A DNA stretch of 36,921 nucleotides from a bacterium (lineage in GTDB: Bacteria; Patescibacteriota; Microgenomatia; Levybacterales; UBA12049), in the NCBI GenBank assembly GCA_021780675.1, contig JAJXYH010000003.1, positions 1 through 36,921 of the forward strand, read 5' to 3'. Made by a program: the position numbers and the translations under genes. The notes beneath the pieces are model-generated. The model searched no databases. It saw only the letters and a program-made list of their open reading frames with translations, and was not told the origin of the DNA. How positions within the stretch are numbered: position 1 is the stretch's first letter; each line of letters starts with the position of its first letter. Positions 10,271 to 36,921 of this stretch are shown in pieces.

Positions 10271-11850
10271 TAAAAAATCTTATCAAAAAGTATAATGGTC
10301 AAAATTTGTTTTTGACTTTAATAATAATACTTGCAACCTTTTTAAGACTATATAGAATCGAAGACTACATGACCTTTTTGGGAGACCAGGGAAGAGACGT
10401 CTTAATTGTTTATAACATCTTACACGGTCATTTAACCCTTCTTGGGCCAACTTCTTCGGTTGGAGGATTTTTCTTAGGACCAATTTATTATTATTTTATG
10501 GCGCCCTTTTTGTGGCTTTTTAATTATAACCCAGTTGGTCCTGCGGTTATGATTGCACTGGTAGGATCGTTAACGGTTTGGCTTGTATATAAATTCACTT
10601 CGGAATTTTTTAATAGTAAAATAGGACTTATCGCTGCTACAATCTATGCAATCTCTCCGGTTGTTGTTTCTTACTCACGTTTTTCCTGGAATCCAAATCC
10701 AATGCCTTTTGTTTCTCTTTTAATTCTATATATATTGTATAGAAATTCCTTAAAGAACAGCCTTAAAAAATTATTATCTATTGGATTATTGTTGGGAATT
10801 GCTATGCAACTACATTATTTGGCTACTTTTTTAACTGTAATTATATTTGCTTACGTTTTCTTGTCGGAGTTTGTTTTATCAAAAACTAAATTATTAAATT
10901 TAATTTTATCTGTTTTTAAAAAATATCTTTTTATATTAGCAGGATTTATAGTAGGATGGTCTCCGTTTTTAGCTTTTGAAATAAGACACGGATTTTTGGA
11001 TTTTAAAAACATTTTTGCTTTTGTTTTACATTCGGGCGATACGGGAGCAAGTGCCAATTATTTCCAAATAATAAACGACGTATTCTTCAGACTTTTTTCC
11101 CGTCTTATTTTTGCCTTTCCCGATTTAAACCAAATATCTAAATTTACTCCAGCAGTGATAGATTTATGGACGCTAGCAGTATTAGCAGTTGCATTGCTTA
11201 GTACATTTTTACTGTTTTGGGGTTTATATAAATCATTAAAAACAAAATCAAAGGAGATAAATAAATATTTATTATTAAGTTGTTGGTTTGTAATCGCAAT
11301 TCTTCTATTCGGTTTTTACAAAAAGTCAATTTATGATTATTATTTTGCATTCATATTTCCTTTGCCATTTATAATGGTTGGGAATTTTATTTATAAGTTG
11401 GGAAATTTTAAGAAAAGTAAGCTTTTTTTAATTGTTTCCGGAATTCTTTTTGCCGGAATTTTTGCAATAAATATTCAAGGTATGCCATTTAGATACGAGC
11501 CAAATAGGCAAGTAAACCAAATGAAAACAATTGCAAAATTTGTTTTGGATAAAACCGATAATATGCCTTATAATTTTGCTTTAATATCCGAAGGTAATAC
11601 GGACCATGCTTATCGGTATTTTTTTACAATATGGAATAAACCTCCGGTAACAATTTTAAACCAGCAAGATGACCCAAACAGAAAATCTGTTACGAACCAA
11701 CTTTTTATTGTTTGTGAAAGTCCGCTCCCGTGCCATCCATTGGGAAATTCTTTATGGGAAATTGCCGGTTTTGGAAGGGCAGATATTGCCGGACACTGGG
11801 AGGTTTCGGTGGTGGAGGTCTATAAGTTAGTACATTATAAGGATAAATAA
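10267..11850 (+). CDS. GT-C (GT39/ArnT-like) membrane glycosyltransferase
   Basis: FLRLYRIEDYMTFLGDQGRDVLIVYNIL plus many TM helices; ATGA overlap with upstream gene. Confidence 0.78.
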   Translation: MIKNLIKKYNGQNLFLTLIIILATFLRLYRIEDYMTFLGDQGRDVLIVYNILHGHLTLLGPTSSVGGFFLGPIYYYFMAPFLWLFNYNPVGPAVMIALVGSLTVWLVYKFTSEFFNSKIGLIAATIYAISPVVVSYSRFSWNPNPMPFVSLLILYILYRNSLKNSLKKLLSIGLLLGIAMQLHYLATFLTVIIFAYVFLSEFVLSKTKLLNLILSVFKKYLFILAGFIVGWSPFLAFEIRHGFLDFKNIFAFVLHSGDTGASANYFQIINDVFFRLFSRLIFAFPDLNQISKFTPAVIDLWTLAVLAVALLSTFLLFWGLYKSLKTKSKEINKYLLLSCWFVIAILLFGFYKKSIYDYYFAFIFPLPFIMVGNFIYKLGNFKKSKLFLIVSGILFAGIFAINIQGMPFRYEPNRQVNQMKTIAKFVLDKTDNMPYNFALISEGNTDHAYRYFFTIWNKPPVTILNQQDDPNRKSVTNQLFIVCESPLPCHPLGNSLWEIAGFGRADIAGHWEVSVVEVYKLVHYKDK

Positions 11851-30499: not shown

Positions 30500-30570
30500 T
30501 GCTGGATCATCTAACGGTAGGATAGTGGACTCTGAATCCATTCATCTTGGTTCGAATCCAAGTCCAGCAG
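30500..30570 (+). tRNA. tRNA-Gln (anticodon CUG), CCA not encoded
   Basis: Cloverleaf by hand: TGCTGGA/TCCAGCA acceptor, ATC..GAT D-stem, GTGGA-CTCTGAA-TCCAT anticodon arm, CTTGG-TTCGAAT-CCAAG T-arm, discriminator G. Confidence 0.93.
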
Positions 30571-32233
30571 CTAAGTTTCCCCGATGAGTACGAAAATAGT
30601 CGTTTAGCTTGATACACTGGGCTAATCTCGGTGTTCCAGAAATTAGTTGTTGATAAGTAGGTGCTTTATCGAACAAAACCCCAAAATATGAAGCTTTTAG
30701 AAGCGGATCTTCGTTCTTAAGTAATAATTCGTCTAAGTGTTCCAGATAATATTTAACATAGGCCATAACCACTTTAATATCATAACCTTTAGCTTGATTA
30801 GCTTTTTCTTCTAATAATTTTGTAATATTATGTTTCATTGTACCTACTTCATCTTCGATATATTTTATTGCTGTTTCTGAAGTTAGGTATTTAATCTTGC
30901 TAAGTGTCATTGTTATCTGATTATTAATATCATTTATCTTTTGATCAATACTTATTTCATCTTTAACTGTATTTTCATTTCTTTTGTACCATTCAGTAAT
31001 AACTGTATTTGCCAAATCATTTGCAAAACTTGGAGCAAGGTCTATGTTTTGTACAAATTTAGTAATAGTATTTTTAAAGTCTTCTTTGGGTACTCTAAAA
31101 TAATGTCCTCTTTTATTGCAATGGTATGCAGGATAATATTTACCAAGTTTTCCTCTAGAAGCACTGCCAAATAATGGTTTGTCACAATGCGGACACATAA
31201 CAATTTTTCTGTAAGCAAAATCAGCATTTCTTAAACCCTTTTTAATTAAGTACTCAGGTGCTTTTCTTTTAAAGATAGTTATCTCTCCGTTATTGTCTTC
31301 AATGACAACTTTTCCCCTATTTGCCTTGTTAAATGTTTCAATAGAAACAAGTCCTTCATATTTTGCTTTAAAAGGTCTTCCTTGGGTCCATTTCTCAGAA
31401 CTAACACCTGCATAGGTTGTGTTTTGAATATATCGCCAAAAGCCTTTGATATTTAACTTGTTTCCTCCGATTTGTCCGACGATTTTAGTTCTGTCTTTTG
31501 GATCTCTTCTTAAAGCAATGCTTGTTTTAAATCCTAAGTTATTTATTCTTTCAACGATTTGTCTGTCAGTTAAACTTCCTTGGCACCTTAACTCAAACAT
31601 TTTAATAATAAACTCTGATTCAGTAGGATGTGGTTTTAGAATAGTTCTTCTGCCGTTTGTAGTTTCCACTTGTTCATTAATAAAACCGTAAGGAGCCTTT
31701 CTGACCCAGTATCCCATTCTTGCGTAGCGAATTTCTGCTCCTATCATTCTGGACATAATGTCTCGCATTTCGTCTTTTGCTCTTTCTGCTTCTAAGATTT
31801 CAGATTTTTTAGTCGGAGAATAAACACTCCAGTCAAAACTAACTCCTAAATGTTCTAATGTATTTATTTGTTGTGTTCCAATAACGCCATATATATCAAT
31901 AAGCTTTACTCCTTTTCTCTCAAGCTGCATTTTAAGTCCGTCATAAAGATAAGATCCACCTCTTGTGAATCTGTCTATAGATTTAATAATAAAAAGTTGA
32001 ATATCATTTTTAGAATTTACACAATAATCAATTGCTTCCTGTACCGGTTGTTCTTCTTTGGAAGCAGATTCTAAAAAGATAAAGAATTTCTTAACATTAA
32101 TGTGATGTGCTTTGGCAAAGTTTTCTATTTGTTCTTTTTGGGCTTCCGGGGAATCGCCTTGAGTACCTTGTCTGACAGATGAGACTCTAATTGCGGCAAC
32201 TGCATTTTCTATTTTTGGCAGATATTCGTTCAT
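30542..32233 (-). CDS. large serine recombinase (resolvase + recombinase + zinc beta-ribbon domains)
   Basis: AAIRVSSVRQGTQGDSPEAQKEQI catalytic Ser region, IKSIDRFTRGG, MCPHCDKPLFGSASRGKLGKYYPAYHCNKRGHYFRVPKEDF zinc ribbon, coiled coil; stop codon inside tRNA-Gln. Confidence 0.93.
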   Translation of the reverse strand: MNEYLPKIENAVAAIRVSSVRQGTQGDSPEAQKEQIENFAKAHHINVKKFFIFLESASKEEQPVQEAIDYCVNSKNDIQLFIIKSIDRFTRGGSYLYDGLKMQLERKGVKLIDIYGVIGTQQINTLEHLGVSFDWSVYSPTKKSEILEAERAKDEMRDIMSRMIGAEIRYARMGYWVRKAPYGFINEQVETTNGRRTILKPHPTESEFIIKMFELRCQGSLTDRQIVERINNLGFKTSIALRRDPKDRTKIVGQIGGNKLNIKGFWRYIQNTTYAGVSSEKWTQGRPFKAKYEGLVSIETFNKANRGKVVIEDNNGEITIFKRKAPEYLIKKGLRNADFAYRKIVMCPHCDKPLFGSASRGKLGKYYPAYHCNKRGHYFRVPKEDFKNTITKFVQNIDLAPSFANDLANTVITEWYKRNENTVKDEISIDQKINDINNQITMTLSKIKYLTSETAIKYIEDEVGTMKHNITKLLEEKANQAKGYDIKVVMAYVKYYLEHLDELLLKNEDPLLKASYFGVLFDKAPTYQQLISGTPRLAQCIKLNDYFRTHRGNLAAGLGFEPR

Positions 32234-32786: not shown

Positions 32787-33686
32787 ATGAATTACAGAGT
32801 ATTGCCAAGTATTACGGATAAGCAAAAAGAAATAATGGATTTAATCTTTCGATTTAGATTTGTTAATCGTCACCAAATACAAAGGCTACTTAATCATAAA
32901 GACCCTAAAAGAATAAATGTTTGGCTTAAAGATTTAGTTGATAAAAACTTCTTAGGAAGAATTTATTCCCATAAGCTCTTAGAAAATACTAAACCTGCAA
33001 TTTATTATCTTAATAATAACGGTATTGTATGGGTAAAGTATGAAAAAGCAAATGAATTTGGAAATGATGATGAGATAGAGCTTAAATATATTAAGAAATA
33101 TTACCAGGATAAAAAAGCTTCAACTACTTATATTAACCACTGCGTTACTTTATCTGAATTTTATGTTCAGTTTAAAGAGCAAGAAAGAAAAGAAAATGAA
33201 GGTCGTAAGAAACCAAAACTTGAATACCGTTTTGAAACAAAAAGTGAAATGTGGATTACAAGACAAAGAGAACTTTATGGAAAAGATTTTAATGAGGTAA
33301 AAAATTACATTCCTGATTTATACCTTGAAAAATTTAAAGATCCGGAAGGAAACAGAATGGATTCGACTACCTTTTTTATTGAATTATTTGACCCAAAAGT
33401 TCCAAGATATGCTATTAAATACAAAATTCAACAATTTGTTGAGCTTAAAGAAGAAGAGAAAGAATGGAAATATAGATATGCAGGTATGGATAATAAGTTC
33501 CCACTAATTCTTTTAGTCTTTTCCAATCAACCAAAACTTAATGGACTTGTTCAATTTATTAATGATGAAATTGCATATTCCTATGCAAATGAAGGTTTAT
33601 GTTTTTATGCAACTACTTATCAAAAAGCTATGACTCAAACACTTCTCGCAGGACCTAAAATTTGGAAGGAGATAAGGGGAGAGTAA
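32787..33686 (+). CDS. replication-relaxation (Replic_Relax)-like protein
   Basis: N-terminal wHTH: LPSITDKQKEIMDLIFRFRFVNRHQIQRLLNHKDPKRINVWLKDLVDKNFLGRIYSHKLLENTKPAIYYLNNNGIVWV; adjacency to recombinase. Confidence 0.65.
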   Translation: MNYRVLPSITDKQKEIMDLIFRFRFVNRHQIQRLLNHKDPKRINVWLKDLVDKNFLGRIYSHKLLENTKPAIYYLNNNGIVWVKYEKANEFGNDDEIELKYIKKYYQDKKASTTYINHCVTLSEFYVQFKEQERKENEGRKKPKLEYRFETKSEMWITRQRELYGKDFNEVKNYIPDLYLEKFKDPEGNRMDSTTFFIELFDPKVPRYAIKYKIQQFVELKEEEKEWKYRYAGMDNKFPLILLVFSNQPKLNGLVQFINDEIAYSYANEGLCFYATTYQKAMTQTLLAGPKIWKEIRGE

Positions 33687-33775: not shown

Positions 33776-35593
33776 ATGCATAAAGATGATGAAGTAACGT
33801 TCAAAGGATTATTTCTTCCGTTAACCACTAAAAAAGCAATTGTCTTTATTTTTCTTATTGGTTTTATTGTATTCTTTAATAGTTTGTTTAATCCTTTTCA
33901 ATTTGATGATTTTGCTCAAATTGTCAATAATCCTTTTATAAATAATTTAGGCAGCATTCCATCATATTTTGAAAAAGGGATGGCATTTTCCGGTAATTAT
34001 TCATTCAAGATGCTTCATCTTCAATACAGGCCATTTTATTTTTCTTATTTTACTATTGTTTATGCCTTTTTTGGTGCGAATCCATTACCATTTCATTTAT
34101 TTCAACTATTTTTGCATATTACTAATTCTATTCTTTTATTTGTTATTTTTTCAAAGTTATTCAAAAAAGAAATAGCTTTTTTAATATCACTTATTTTTTT
34201 AGTGCATCCGATTAACAGTGAGGCGGTAATCTATATCGCTGATGTTCAGGAAACTATTTTTATTTTGTTTGGTTTAATCGCATTCTATCTAATTTTACAA
34301 ACAAATAAAAGAATATTATCAATTCGCAAACTTATTTTAATTTCGGTATTATTATTGTTTTCACTATTTACTAAGGAAACAGGATCACTATTTTTAATAT
34401 TGTTATTTATTTATGTATATTTATTTAGTAAGGTTAACAAAAAAAGATTTTTTCTATCTGTAATGGGTGTTTTGTTAATATATCTAGTAACAAGATATAT
34501 AATATCTTTTAATTCAGTAACAGATATTAGTCAATCCTTAATCCAACAAGCCTCTTTTTACATAAGATTGATTACAATGCCTAAAATATTTTTTTATTAC
34601 TTTTCTAAATTTGTTTATCCTATTAATTTGGCAGTTGGACAACTATGGCTTGTAAAACAAATTAATTTTACTTATTTTTTCTTACCTCTATTAATGGATA
34701 TCGTGATTCTTTTTACTATTTGTTTGGGTGGTCTTTTTTTATTTAAAAAGAACAATAGTCAGCTTAAATTATATGTGTTCTTTTCTATATGGTTATTTTT
34801 GGGTATTATCATGCATTTGCAAATAGTTCCACTGGATGTTACTGTTGCTGATCGATATTTTTATTTCCCAATAATTGGATTGTTGGGACTTATTGGAATA
34901 CTCATTAATTTAGATTTATCCCAATTGTTTTTAAAGAAATATTCAAGAATTTGTACAATTTTCTTTATAATTTTAATGATACTACTTTCGATTATTACAA
35001 TTATCAGAAACTCACAATGGCAGTCAACCTTTACATTATACAGCCACGATGTACAATATGCACAAAGTCCCTTACTTGATAGTTATTATGGTGGACTTTT
35101 GATATTTAAAGGACAATATAGTCAACCATTCCTATTAAAAGAAGCAAAATTTTATTTAGATAGATCTGTTTCTCAAGCTCCCGAGTTAGGACATAATATT
35201 AATAATTTAGCTGTTTGGTATGAGATTAATAATGACTACGAAAAGGCAAAGTCATTGTATTTAAAAAATATTGCTTTAAACAGTAAAAGAAAAAACGGTT
35301 ACACCTCTGATTCTTATACAGGACTTGCTCATATAGCACTTAATGAGAAAAATCCTTTAGAAGCAAAAAGGATGTCGCAGGAAGCTTTAAAAATTAACTC
35401 GCTAAACATACATGCTAAAGAATATTTAGCCATATCAGAATACCAGTTGGGAGAAAAAGTAGAGGCACTTAATATTATCCGAGAATTATATTATCATGTC
35501 CAAAATCAGGAAATAGTGCAATTATATATGTTAATCAATTTAAATAAACCATTTACATTAAGTCCGAAGTTTGGTTTATCCGTTGTGTATTAA
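33776..35593 (+). CDS. TMTC-like GT-C membrane glycosyltransferase with C-terminal TPR repeats
   Basis: FNPFQFDDFAQIVNNPFI, YRPFYFSYFTIVYAFFGANPLPFHLFQLFLHITNSILLFV, VHPINSEAVIYIADVQE, VADRYFYFP, then TPR helices. Confidence 0.8.
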   Translation: MHKDDEVTFKGLFLPLTTKKAIVFIFLIGFIVFFNSLFNPFQFDDFAQIVNNPFINNLGSIPSYFEKGMAFSGNYSFKMLHLQYRPFYFSYFTIVYAFFGANPLPFHLFQLFLHITNSILLFVIFSKLFKKEIAFLISLIFLVHPINSEAVIYIADVQETIFILFGLIAFYLILQTNKRILSIRKLILISVLLLFSLFTKETGSLFLILLFIYVYLFSKVNKKRFFLSVMGVLLIYLVTRYIISFNSVTDISQSLIQQASFYIRLITMPKIFFYYFSKFVYPINLAVGQLWLVKQINFTYFFLPLLMDIVILFTICLGGLFLFKKNNSQLKLYVFFSIWLFLGIIMHLQIVPLDVTVADRYFYFPIIGLLGLIGILINLDLSQLFLKKYSRICTIFFIILMILLSIITIIRNSQWQSTFTLYSHDVQYAQSPLLDSYYGGLLIFKGQYSQPFLLKEAKFYLDRSVSQAPELGHNINNLAVWYEINNDYEKAKSLYLKNIALNSKRKNGYTSDSYTGLAHIALNEKNPLEAKRMSQEALKINSLNIHAKEYLAISEYQLGEKVEALNIIRELYYHVQNQEIVQLYMLINLNKPFTLSPKFGLSVVY

Positions 35594-35707: not shown

Positions 35708-36921
35708 ATGTTTAAAAAGCGATTAAAAATAATCCTCGTTGGTATTTTATTATCTCTCGTGTTTTTTTCGTTTTCTAGTTCAAAAGCATTAGCAACCAAT
35801 TATCAGCTTTCAGGAACAGTAACTGATAATTCATCTAACGGTATTGGTGGGGCAACTGTGCACGTTTATAACGTTGGTTCTACCACAGATGTTGTATCAT
35901 CTACCACAACAGATAGTTCAACTGGCTATTATTCTTTTAGTTCTATTCCTCAGGGAACGTATGATATTCAGGTAAATCCATCAGGAAGCGGGTTTTCTTC
36001 CGCAGTTGCACTTAGTCAGAATATCTCGCAAGATACAGTTTTAAATTTTGTTTTGACTACTGCTGGAATAGTCACTCTTAGTGGTAAACTTACTAATCCG
36101 TTGGGTGTAGCTGCTCCTAATCAGATAATTAAACTGCGACCTTCCGGATCATCATCAAGCGATATACTTGGTTATACTGATTCTAATGGAAACTATTCTA
36201 TTCAAGCGAGTCCTGGAACATATACAATTATTATTTACCCAAATCCTAATAATGGTGGTAATTCATTGGTAGATCTTCCCCAGAATTATACGATTACTGC
36301 CAATAATTACTCTCTAACGCAAAGCACTGTTTTAAACATGTCATTGCCCTTTAAAAGGGTAGCTTTTAAAGTACAAGATTCATCTAACATTCCTATAGAT
36401 AACGTAATGCTTACTGCCAGTATTGGAGGAGGATGTAATGTCAGTAGTTCACAGCTCACTATTGGGGGTATTGCAAATGTATCTGGATGGACTTGTTATT
36501 CCAGCGGTACTCCTAATCTAAAAACAGATGCTTCAGGAAGTGCCGTAATGTGGTTAACTCCCACTGACTCAAGTCATGCATATACCATTACTGCAACTCC
36601 GCCAACAGGAAGTATATATTTATCGACTTCTCTTACAAATGTATCGGTAACTAGTGATGAAACACTAGCAATTACCATGCCACAACCAGTCACTCTTAGT
36701 GGTAAACTTACTAATCCGTTGGGTGTAGCTGCTCCTAATCAGATAATTAAACTGCGACCTTCCGGATCATCATCAAGCGATATACTTGGTTATGCTGATT
36801 CTAATGGAAACTATTCTATTCAAGCGAGTCCTGGAACATATACAATTATTATTTACCCAAATCCTAATAATGGTGGTAATTCATTGGTAGATCTTCCCCA
36901 GAATTATACGATTACTGCCAA
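35708..36921 (+). CDS. secreted repeat protein with carboxypeptidase-regulatory-like domains (truncated by window end)
   Basis: Manual translation: MFKKRLKIILVGILLSLVFFSFSSSKALATNYQLSGTVTDNSSNGIGGATVHVYNVGSTTD...YYSFSSIPQGTYDIQVNPSG...; open to the right edge, hence absent from ORF track. Confidence 0.85.
   Translation, partial: MFKKRLKIILVGILLSLVFFSFSSSKALATNYQLSGTVTDNSSNGIGGATVHVYNVGSTTDVVSSTTTDSSTGYYSFSSIPQGTYDIQVNPSGSGFSSAVALSQNISQDTVLNFVLTTAGIVTLSGKLTNPLGVAAPNQIIKLRPSGSSSSDILGYTDSNGNYSIQASPGTYTIIIYPNPNNGGNSLVDLPQNYTITANNYSLTQSTVLNMSLPFKRVAFKVQDSSNIPIDNVMLTASIGGGCNVSSSQLTIGGIANVSGWTCYSSGTPNLKTDASGSAVMWLTPTDSSHAYTITATPPTGSIYLSTSLTNVSVTSDETLAITMPQPVTLSGKLTNPLGVAAPNQIIKLRPSGSSSSDILGYADSNGNYSIQASPGTYTIIIYPNPNNGGNSLVDLPQNYTITA
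36071..36303 (+). repeat. copy 1 of long near-identical intragenic repeat
   Basis: GTCACTCTTAGTGGTAAACTTACTAATCCG... matches 36689-36921 with one mismatch (A36176 vs G36794). Confidence 0.95.
36689..36921 (+). repeat. copy 2 (truncated by window end) of long near-identical intragenic repeat
   Basis: 618-nt period relative to copy 1; 232/233 identical positions. Confidence 0.95.

Follow-up and report, generated by a model that had tools for sequence, protein, structure and literature searches.

Probable splitting and re-tailing of a tRNA-targeting large serine recombinase upon integration in Patescibacteria

Known self-splitting systems and the present locus

It has been reported that the archaeal 'suicidal' integrases of the SSV1, pTN3 and pT26-2 types carry attP in the integrase gene, which is split at both ends of the integrated element, and a review describes self-disrupting recombinases as exclusively archaeal (PMC8371274). 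In the integration-dependent immunity of mycobacteriophages (Broussard et al. 2013, via PMC8092301 and PMC9262239), attP lies in the repressor gene, the integrase is a tyrosine enzyme, and a degradation tag is removed. In some actinobacterial elements, attP and the 3' end of a tyrosine-type int gene overlap, an arrangement that would be a less drastic relative of the one considered here. In large serine integrases, the motif of the zinc domain lies 5 bp farther from the centre in attP than in attB (PMC3783163); mycobacterial surveys found that serine integrases use non-tRNA sites. In Patescibacteria, a survey found no relaxase in the majority of T4SS clusters (PMC12102498).

The locus described here lies in a window of 36,921 nucleotides, the whole stretch of DNA that was analysed, which is the entire contig C16 of a Patescibacteria-type genome (G000; 960 kb in 61 contigs). 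It is very likely (probability about 0.85) that attP lies inside the recombinase gene of an integrated element and that integration into a tRNA gene splits the gene and re-tails the enzyme, the free circle and any role of the splitting as an integration-dependent switch being inferred. In this reading, the locus resembles the suicidal integrases in having attP in coding sequence, a split gene with its pieces at the two ends, and tRNA genes as typical targets. However, the suicidal integrases are archaeal tyrosine enzymes that lose the whole catalytic half, whereas here a bacterial serine enzyme loses 43–52 C-terminal residues and, in a further difference, gains a host-encoded tail. The recombinase is regarded as an analogue and not a member of the SSV type because it is a serine enzyme and not a tyrosine enzyme with an archaeal Phage_integr_3-type domain. 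As in mycobacteriophage immunity, attP would lie in a coding gene and integration would alter the C-terminus of its product as a switch, but there the repressor is altered and here the recombinase itself. The canonical large serine integrases (LI/A118, Bxb1, phiC31, SPbeta) share with it the domain order, the short core, the 5-bp motif offset and a structural match; unlike theirs, its target is a tRNA acceptor end and its attP lies inside the recombinase gene. No serine-type self-splitting integrase was found in the open-access literature searched, subscription papers and preprints being outside the search; only the archaeal tyrosine cases were found.

The recombinase, its tRNA overlap and the element cargo

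Feature coordinates are collected in Table 1. The recombinase stop codon, TGA at 30544-30542, lies within the T-arm of tRNA-Gln, the protein ends in ...NLAAGLGFEPR, and the first tail codon is completed by core base 30568. The tRNA is canonical, an identical 72-nt copy being present in G017, there without the recombinase. A preliminary description had claimed that a large serine recombinase ends inside tRNA-Gln with its C-terminus antisense to the tRNA, and both the overlap (ARAGORN, ORF coordinates) and the identity (Resolvase domain, conserved positions, structural match) held; only the tRNA end, placed there at 30570, was slightly off.

Table 1. Coordinates of the features of the element and its target; positions refer to the window unless a contig is named.
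Feature	Position	Strand	Remarks
tRNA-Gln(CTG)	30500..30571	+	ARAGORN; the tRNA side of attB consists of the acceptor 3' strand plus the T-arm; intact after integration
Large serine recombinase, integrated (truncated, re-tailed) form, 563 aa	30542..32233	-	ORF; Resolvase PF00239, E=1.7e-9
Host-supplied 3' end of recombinase ORF	30542..30567	-	Tail AGLGFEPR and stop, antisense through the tRNA
T-loop TTCGAA/GAACC, proposed zinc-ribbon-domain motif in attB	30550..30556	.	14 bp from the cut; attP counterpart at 19 bp
attL core, CAGC on + (GCTG on -)	30568..30571	.	Common to attR at G000:C50:11100-11103
Element-encoded recombinase portion	30572..32233	-	Also holds the left arm of attP
Replic_Relax (PF13814) protein	32787..33686	+	Cargo
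TPR-containing membrane protein	33776..35593	+	Cargo
N-terminal part of large repetitive surface protein	35708..36919	+	Open at contig end
Missing 43-aa C-terminal segment	G000:C50:11103-11231		Stop at 11232-11234

The Resolvase catalytic domain is N-terminal, and R16, S18 and the R88 region are invariant in 16 recombinase sequences, as are C347, C350 and C372 at the zinc-ribbon positions. In the relative L029, PF07508 scores above cut-off and the zinc-ribbon match is weak; all Pfam domains of the recombinase lie upstream of the crossover. A sequence search of the recombinase against solved structures gave no match, and the likeness is by fold alone: Foldseek returned a full-length structural match to serine integrase complexes (E=4e-16) for an AlphaFold model of modest confidence (pTM 0.36). 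With the catalytic domain, C-terminal recombinase/zinc-ribbon and coiled-coil features, short core and 5-bp motif shift all present, the protein is a large serine recombinase; that its recombination is directional is inferred, without experiment.

Relatives were represented by 45 recombinases in GTDB genomes, nearly all from Patescibacteria. In 32 of them, the recombinase ends at a tRNA gene into which the ORF runs antisense for at least 30 nt; the tRNAs were Gln, Glu, Lys, Arg or Ser, and the overlap occurred regardless of isotype or reading frame. The remaining 13 comprised two with a tRNA and a broken frame, eight without a tRNA call at that place and three interrupted by the end of a contig, and later sets of relatives added Val, Leu and Gly tRNA targets. 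The overlap is not a chance event but a family trait. Comparison of the C-termini of homologues, as had been proposed beforehand, showed this recurrence together with host-derived tails that differ in frame, look unconstrained and are 8–41 aa long at tRNA or other noncoding sites and longer in DUF1846. The tRNA isotype has switched repeatedly along the recombinase tree, and L027 (tRNA-Lys) and L029 (DUF1846 gene) have nearly identical recombinases at different sites, which indicates recent movement. The family was found in 63 of 374 genomes sampled from the class of the window. At loci without a tRNA, a search for a tmRNA or other RNA gave no Rfam match. Two distant elements, L012 and L026, have a similar non-tRNA site directly after the recombinase, TTCGAAAAA(A)TTCGAAC and then GC-rich hairpins, which is unidentified and without Rfam match. 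In L031 (2060-2271), several tRNA-Glu 3'-fragment repeats lie between a frame-broken recombinase and an intact tRNA; they could be leftovers of successive insertions or excisions.

The element fits a tRNA-targeting integrative element, as it occupies the 3' end of a tRNA gene that stays intact. No relatives were found in viral contigs, phage records or plasmid collections, and a temperate phage was rejected on the first two of these. A Replic_Relax homologue is present in all eight elements compared (window, G082, G078, G089, G054, G075, G087 and G073), and it may be a candidate for the relaxase that remained unfound in the Patescibacteria T4SS survey (PMC12102498). A coupling-protein-like ATPase lies beside the Replic_Relax gene in six of the eight. 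Between the recombinase and Replic_Relax genes, an intergenic inverted repeat, AGCCATGTC...GACATGGCT (32486-32494/32507-32515), might be an oriT or a regulator site. Several relatives, among them G082, G089 and G087, share VirB4, pilin and coupling-protein homologues with integrative conjugative or mobilizable elements, whereas these conjugation genes are absent from the visible parts of the element in the window, which has an assembly gap. Carried as cargo in the G078, G054, G082 and G073 elements are genes for a mercuric-reductase-like flavoprotein, for P-type metal ATPases and for type I restriction-modification. The TPR membrane protein resembles two tandem host genes left of attR (G000:C50:122-3641, MKKEEDVTFKGLFLPFTNKKA...), a likeness that tentatively suggests exchange between element and chromosome.

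Element ends, crossover and the C-terminal segment

The preliminary description took the tRNA 3' region as the attachment site, expected integration to swap the recombinase 3' end, and offered a direct repeat of 30540-30590 and empty sites in relatives as checks. The repeat check failed: no second copy of the tRNA 3' segment exists in the window or its own genome. This absence does not refute the attachment-site idea, because the sites of serine integrases have no more than a short core of a few bases in common. No empty site was found among the relatives examined, since gene order around the tRNA is not conserved. A repeat search within 10–70 kb of relatives gave just two tRNA-Glu 3' copies (G078 and G089); as attR candidates these were rejected, displaced by junctions with the conserved P' arm, and they may be left over from tyrosine-integrase islands at that tRNA. 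BroJett019 (L029/G082) proved to be a complete element, in which a DUF1846 gene is split exactly at profile position 204; its halves lie ~27 kb apart, and the distal one forms an in-frame fusion with the end of the recombinase. Element comparison revealed that a PLD-like gene marks the distal end in relatives, and a search with this gene delimited ten further elements. In the own genome of the window, the PLD-like gene has a single match, C50:11227-11667, beside the missing attachment junction; the attR junction upstream of it reads CTTGCTG followed by GCGAAGTTACCCG, with the core at C50:11100-11103. The probable C-terminal part of the repetitive surface protein is an open, repetitive and suitably oriented ORF at the C50 end (G000:C50:12663-14888, minus strand). 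Because the open surface-protein ORFs match in orientation, the window contig and C50 are likely to join at this gene, the two element ends sitting on different contigs. The element amounts to ~10.1 kb on two contigs plus the assembly gap, with the window as its left end. L036, a 6.1-kb contig, holds a compact element of ~5.8 kb with both ends on one contig (1-135 and 5950); its distal junction lies inside another serine recombinase gene, directly after ...GYRV.

The crossover was mapped in 14 elements with both ends available as attL/attR pairs, 12 of which have tRNA attBs. Only tRNA nt 71-72 (offsets -2 and -1) are identical in all 14 pairs, nt 70 being identical in two; the shared core is 2 bp across all pairs and usually 4–8 bp within one pair, and in the window the crossover dinucleotide is 30568-30569. 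The claim that the tRNA 3' region is the attachment site thus held, with the crossover in the acceptor stem. All 12 tRNA attBs have a GAAC-type motif at +14, and all 14 attP right arms have one at +19, two of the latter as GCACC; the best attB-to-attP shift is 5 bp. This equals the shift described for large serine integrases, in the right arm only; no matching motif was found between the left arms of attP and attB. It is likely, by inference, that the zinc domain reads the T-loop common to all tRNAs, and such reading would make isotype switching easy.

When the element arms are rejoined at the core, the recombinase ORF continues in frame for 43–52 residues in 14 of 14 elements; the same holds for L036 and six more (G476, G014, G621, G221, G298 and G108), giving 21 of 21 resolved elements, with two unresolved relatives, G707 and G148, left out. 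For the element in the window, the predicted attP junction is ...AACTTAGCTG joined to GCGAAGTTACC..., and the protein would read ...NLA followed by GEVTRTWHRILPSLLTTFEKLKALGFTYYNGNVFVIVPEKENV and a stop, versus ...NLA followed by AGLGFEPR and a stop in the integrated form. The expected swap of the recombinase 3' end therefore held, but it is larger than implied, a conserved 43-aa segment being lost to contig C50. The segment is related as protein across elements (window versus G073, score 182; shuffled maximum, 30); the similarity is far above shuffled sequence in Gln/Ser-type elements and weak toward the most distant Saccharibacteria group. Substitutions at codon positions 1/2/3 number 251/152/386, and synonymous codon changes make up 223/509 in the recombinase frame, against 99/533 and 35/524 in the two alternatives; of the three frames, only that of the recombinase is under coding constraint in the segment. 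The stop of the segment overlaps or abuts the start codon of the PLD gene, the last codons being mostly ATGTTTAA/ATGTTTAG or similar, and this probably reflects an arrangement like that of a translationally coupled operon, as inferred from sequence alone. No known domain was found in the 43-aa segment, and the free-form C-termini show no evident ssrA-like tag.

A profile built from the rejoined region was run against ~750 Patescibacteria genomes, 380 from the phylum and 374 from the class, and the two recombinase parts were always apart. Whenever a single contig holds both parts, these share a strand and the small one is situated ~6–40 kb upstream, the exception being an unpaired opposite-strand copy (G014:C15). 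Neither an unsplit recombinase gene nor a free circle was found among these ~750 genomes, the evidence coming from metagenome assemblies without reads; junction-spanning candidates for an unsplit gene (G493, G561, G707, G716, G017 and G639) were checked, and none was contiguous.

Proposed switch, rival readings and implications

In the proposed mechanism, the free circle would carry attP within the recombinase gene, ~43 codons before its end, and would express a full-length enzyme of ~598 aa together with the PLD-like protein and a ~75-aa protein encoded next to it, a candidate for a directionality protein. Recombination of attP with attB at tRNA nt 71-72 would restore the tRNA and split the recombinase gene: attL would retain ~555 recombinase codons and borrow a tail and stop from the antisense of the tRNA, and attR would retain the PLD gene together with the final 43 codons, both cut off from the recombinase promoter. 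With attP in the recombinase gene and the segment in frame, integration would thus remove the segment, substitute a host tail and separate a probable operon. The full-length enzyme would favour integration; the re-tailed enzyme, or the lost downstream expression, would stabilise the integrated state. The sequence itself shows both ends and their core, the continuation of the ORF in frame, the constraint on the segment as coding sequence, its overlap with the next gene, and the shift of the motif between attB and attP. That loss of the segment acts as an integration-dependent switch is as likely as not, the effect on enzyme activity being inferred; it may lock integration, license excision or merely be tolerated. 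A bolder reading could equally prove right or wrong: the free element would co-translate the full-length enzyme with the PLD-like protein, insertion into any of several tRNA genes would exchange a dedicated control segment for a random antisense-tRNA tail, and gene splitting, not only a separate directionality factor, would wholly or partly set directionality.

It could be argued that an ordinary integrase targets the tRNA here and that attP lies immediately downstream of the integrase gene, which would make the tRNA read-through and the distal ORF functionless by-products of this proximity. The variable, apparently unconstrained frame and length of the integrated tails and the position of all Pfam domains upstream of the crossover speak for this; however, the segment is conserved in the recombinase frame only, is in frame in 21/21 elements, scores far above shuffled sequence in Gln/Ser-type elements, and has a stop that overlaps or abuts the next gene, and this reading is very unlikely. 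Less credible still is the view that the segment is not the recombinase C-terminus but an independent small gene that sits beside attR as leader of the PLD operon. It does lie directly upstream of the PLD gene and overlaps it, and some copies have possible in-frame starts, but no start is conserved, several copies, including that of the window, have none in the first 30 codons examined, the upstream frame enters unrelated host DNA for variable lengths, and in all resolved elements the segment and the recombinase keep one phase across the core.

It is also very improbable that the crossover lies in the T-loop (nt 59-61), with the element replacing the whole T-stem and acceptor 3' strand. Tyrosine integrases are known to replace these in such a crossover, and tRNA-Glu 3'-end copies extending to nt 59 (16 bp exact; 18 bp with two mismatches) occur near the distal ends in G078 and G089. 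Yet the two copies are 379 and ~183 bp beyond the junctions with the conserved P' arm and the segment, and the shared bases fall at nt 71-72 in each of the 14 junction pairs.

Under the preferred reading, with attP inside the recombinase gene, integrated copies would always be annotated with wrong C-termini, and therefore cloning the gene as annotated would give an incomplete enzyme. The family offers serine integrases aimed at a conserved feature of tRNAs, together with natural attB/attP pairs whose limits are already defined, and raises the question of whether the last 43-residue segment controls integration versus excision in a serine integrase. A bacterial serine counterpart, widespread in the class of the window, would be a convergent solution to archaeal self-splitting, and it would represent a mobile-element family for a phylum in which gene transfer is poorly understood.
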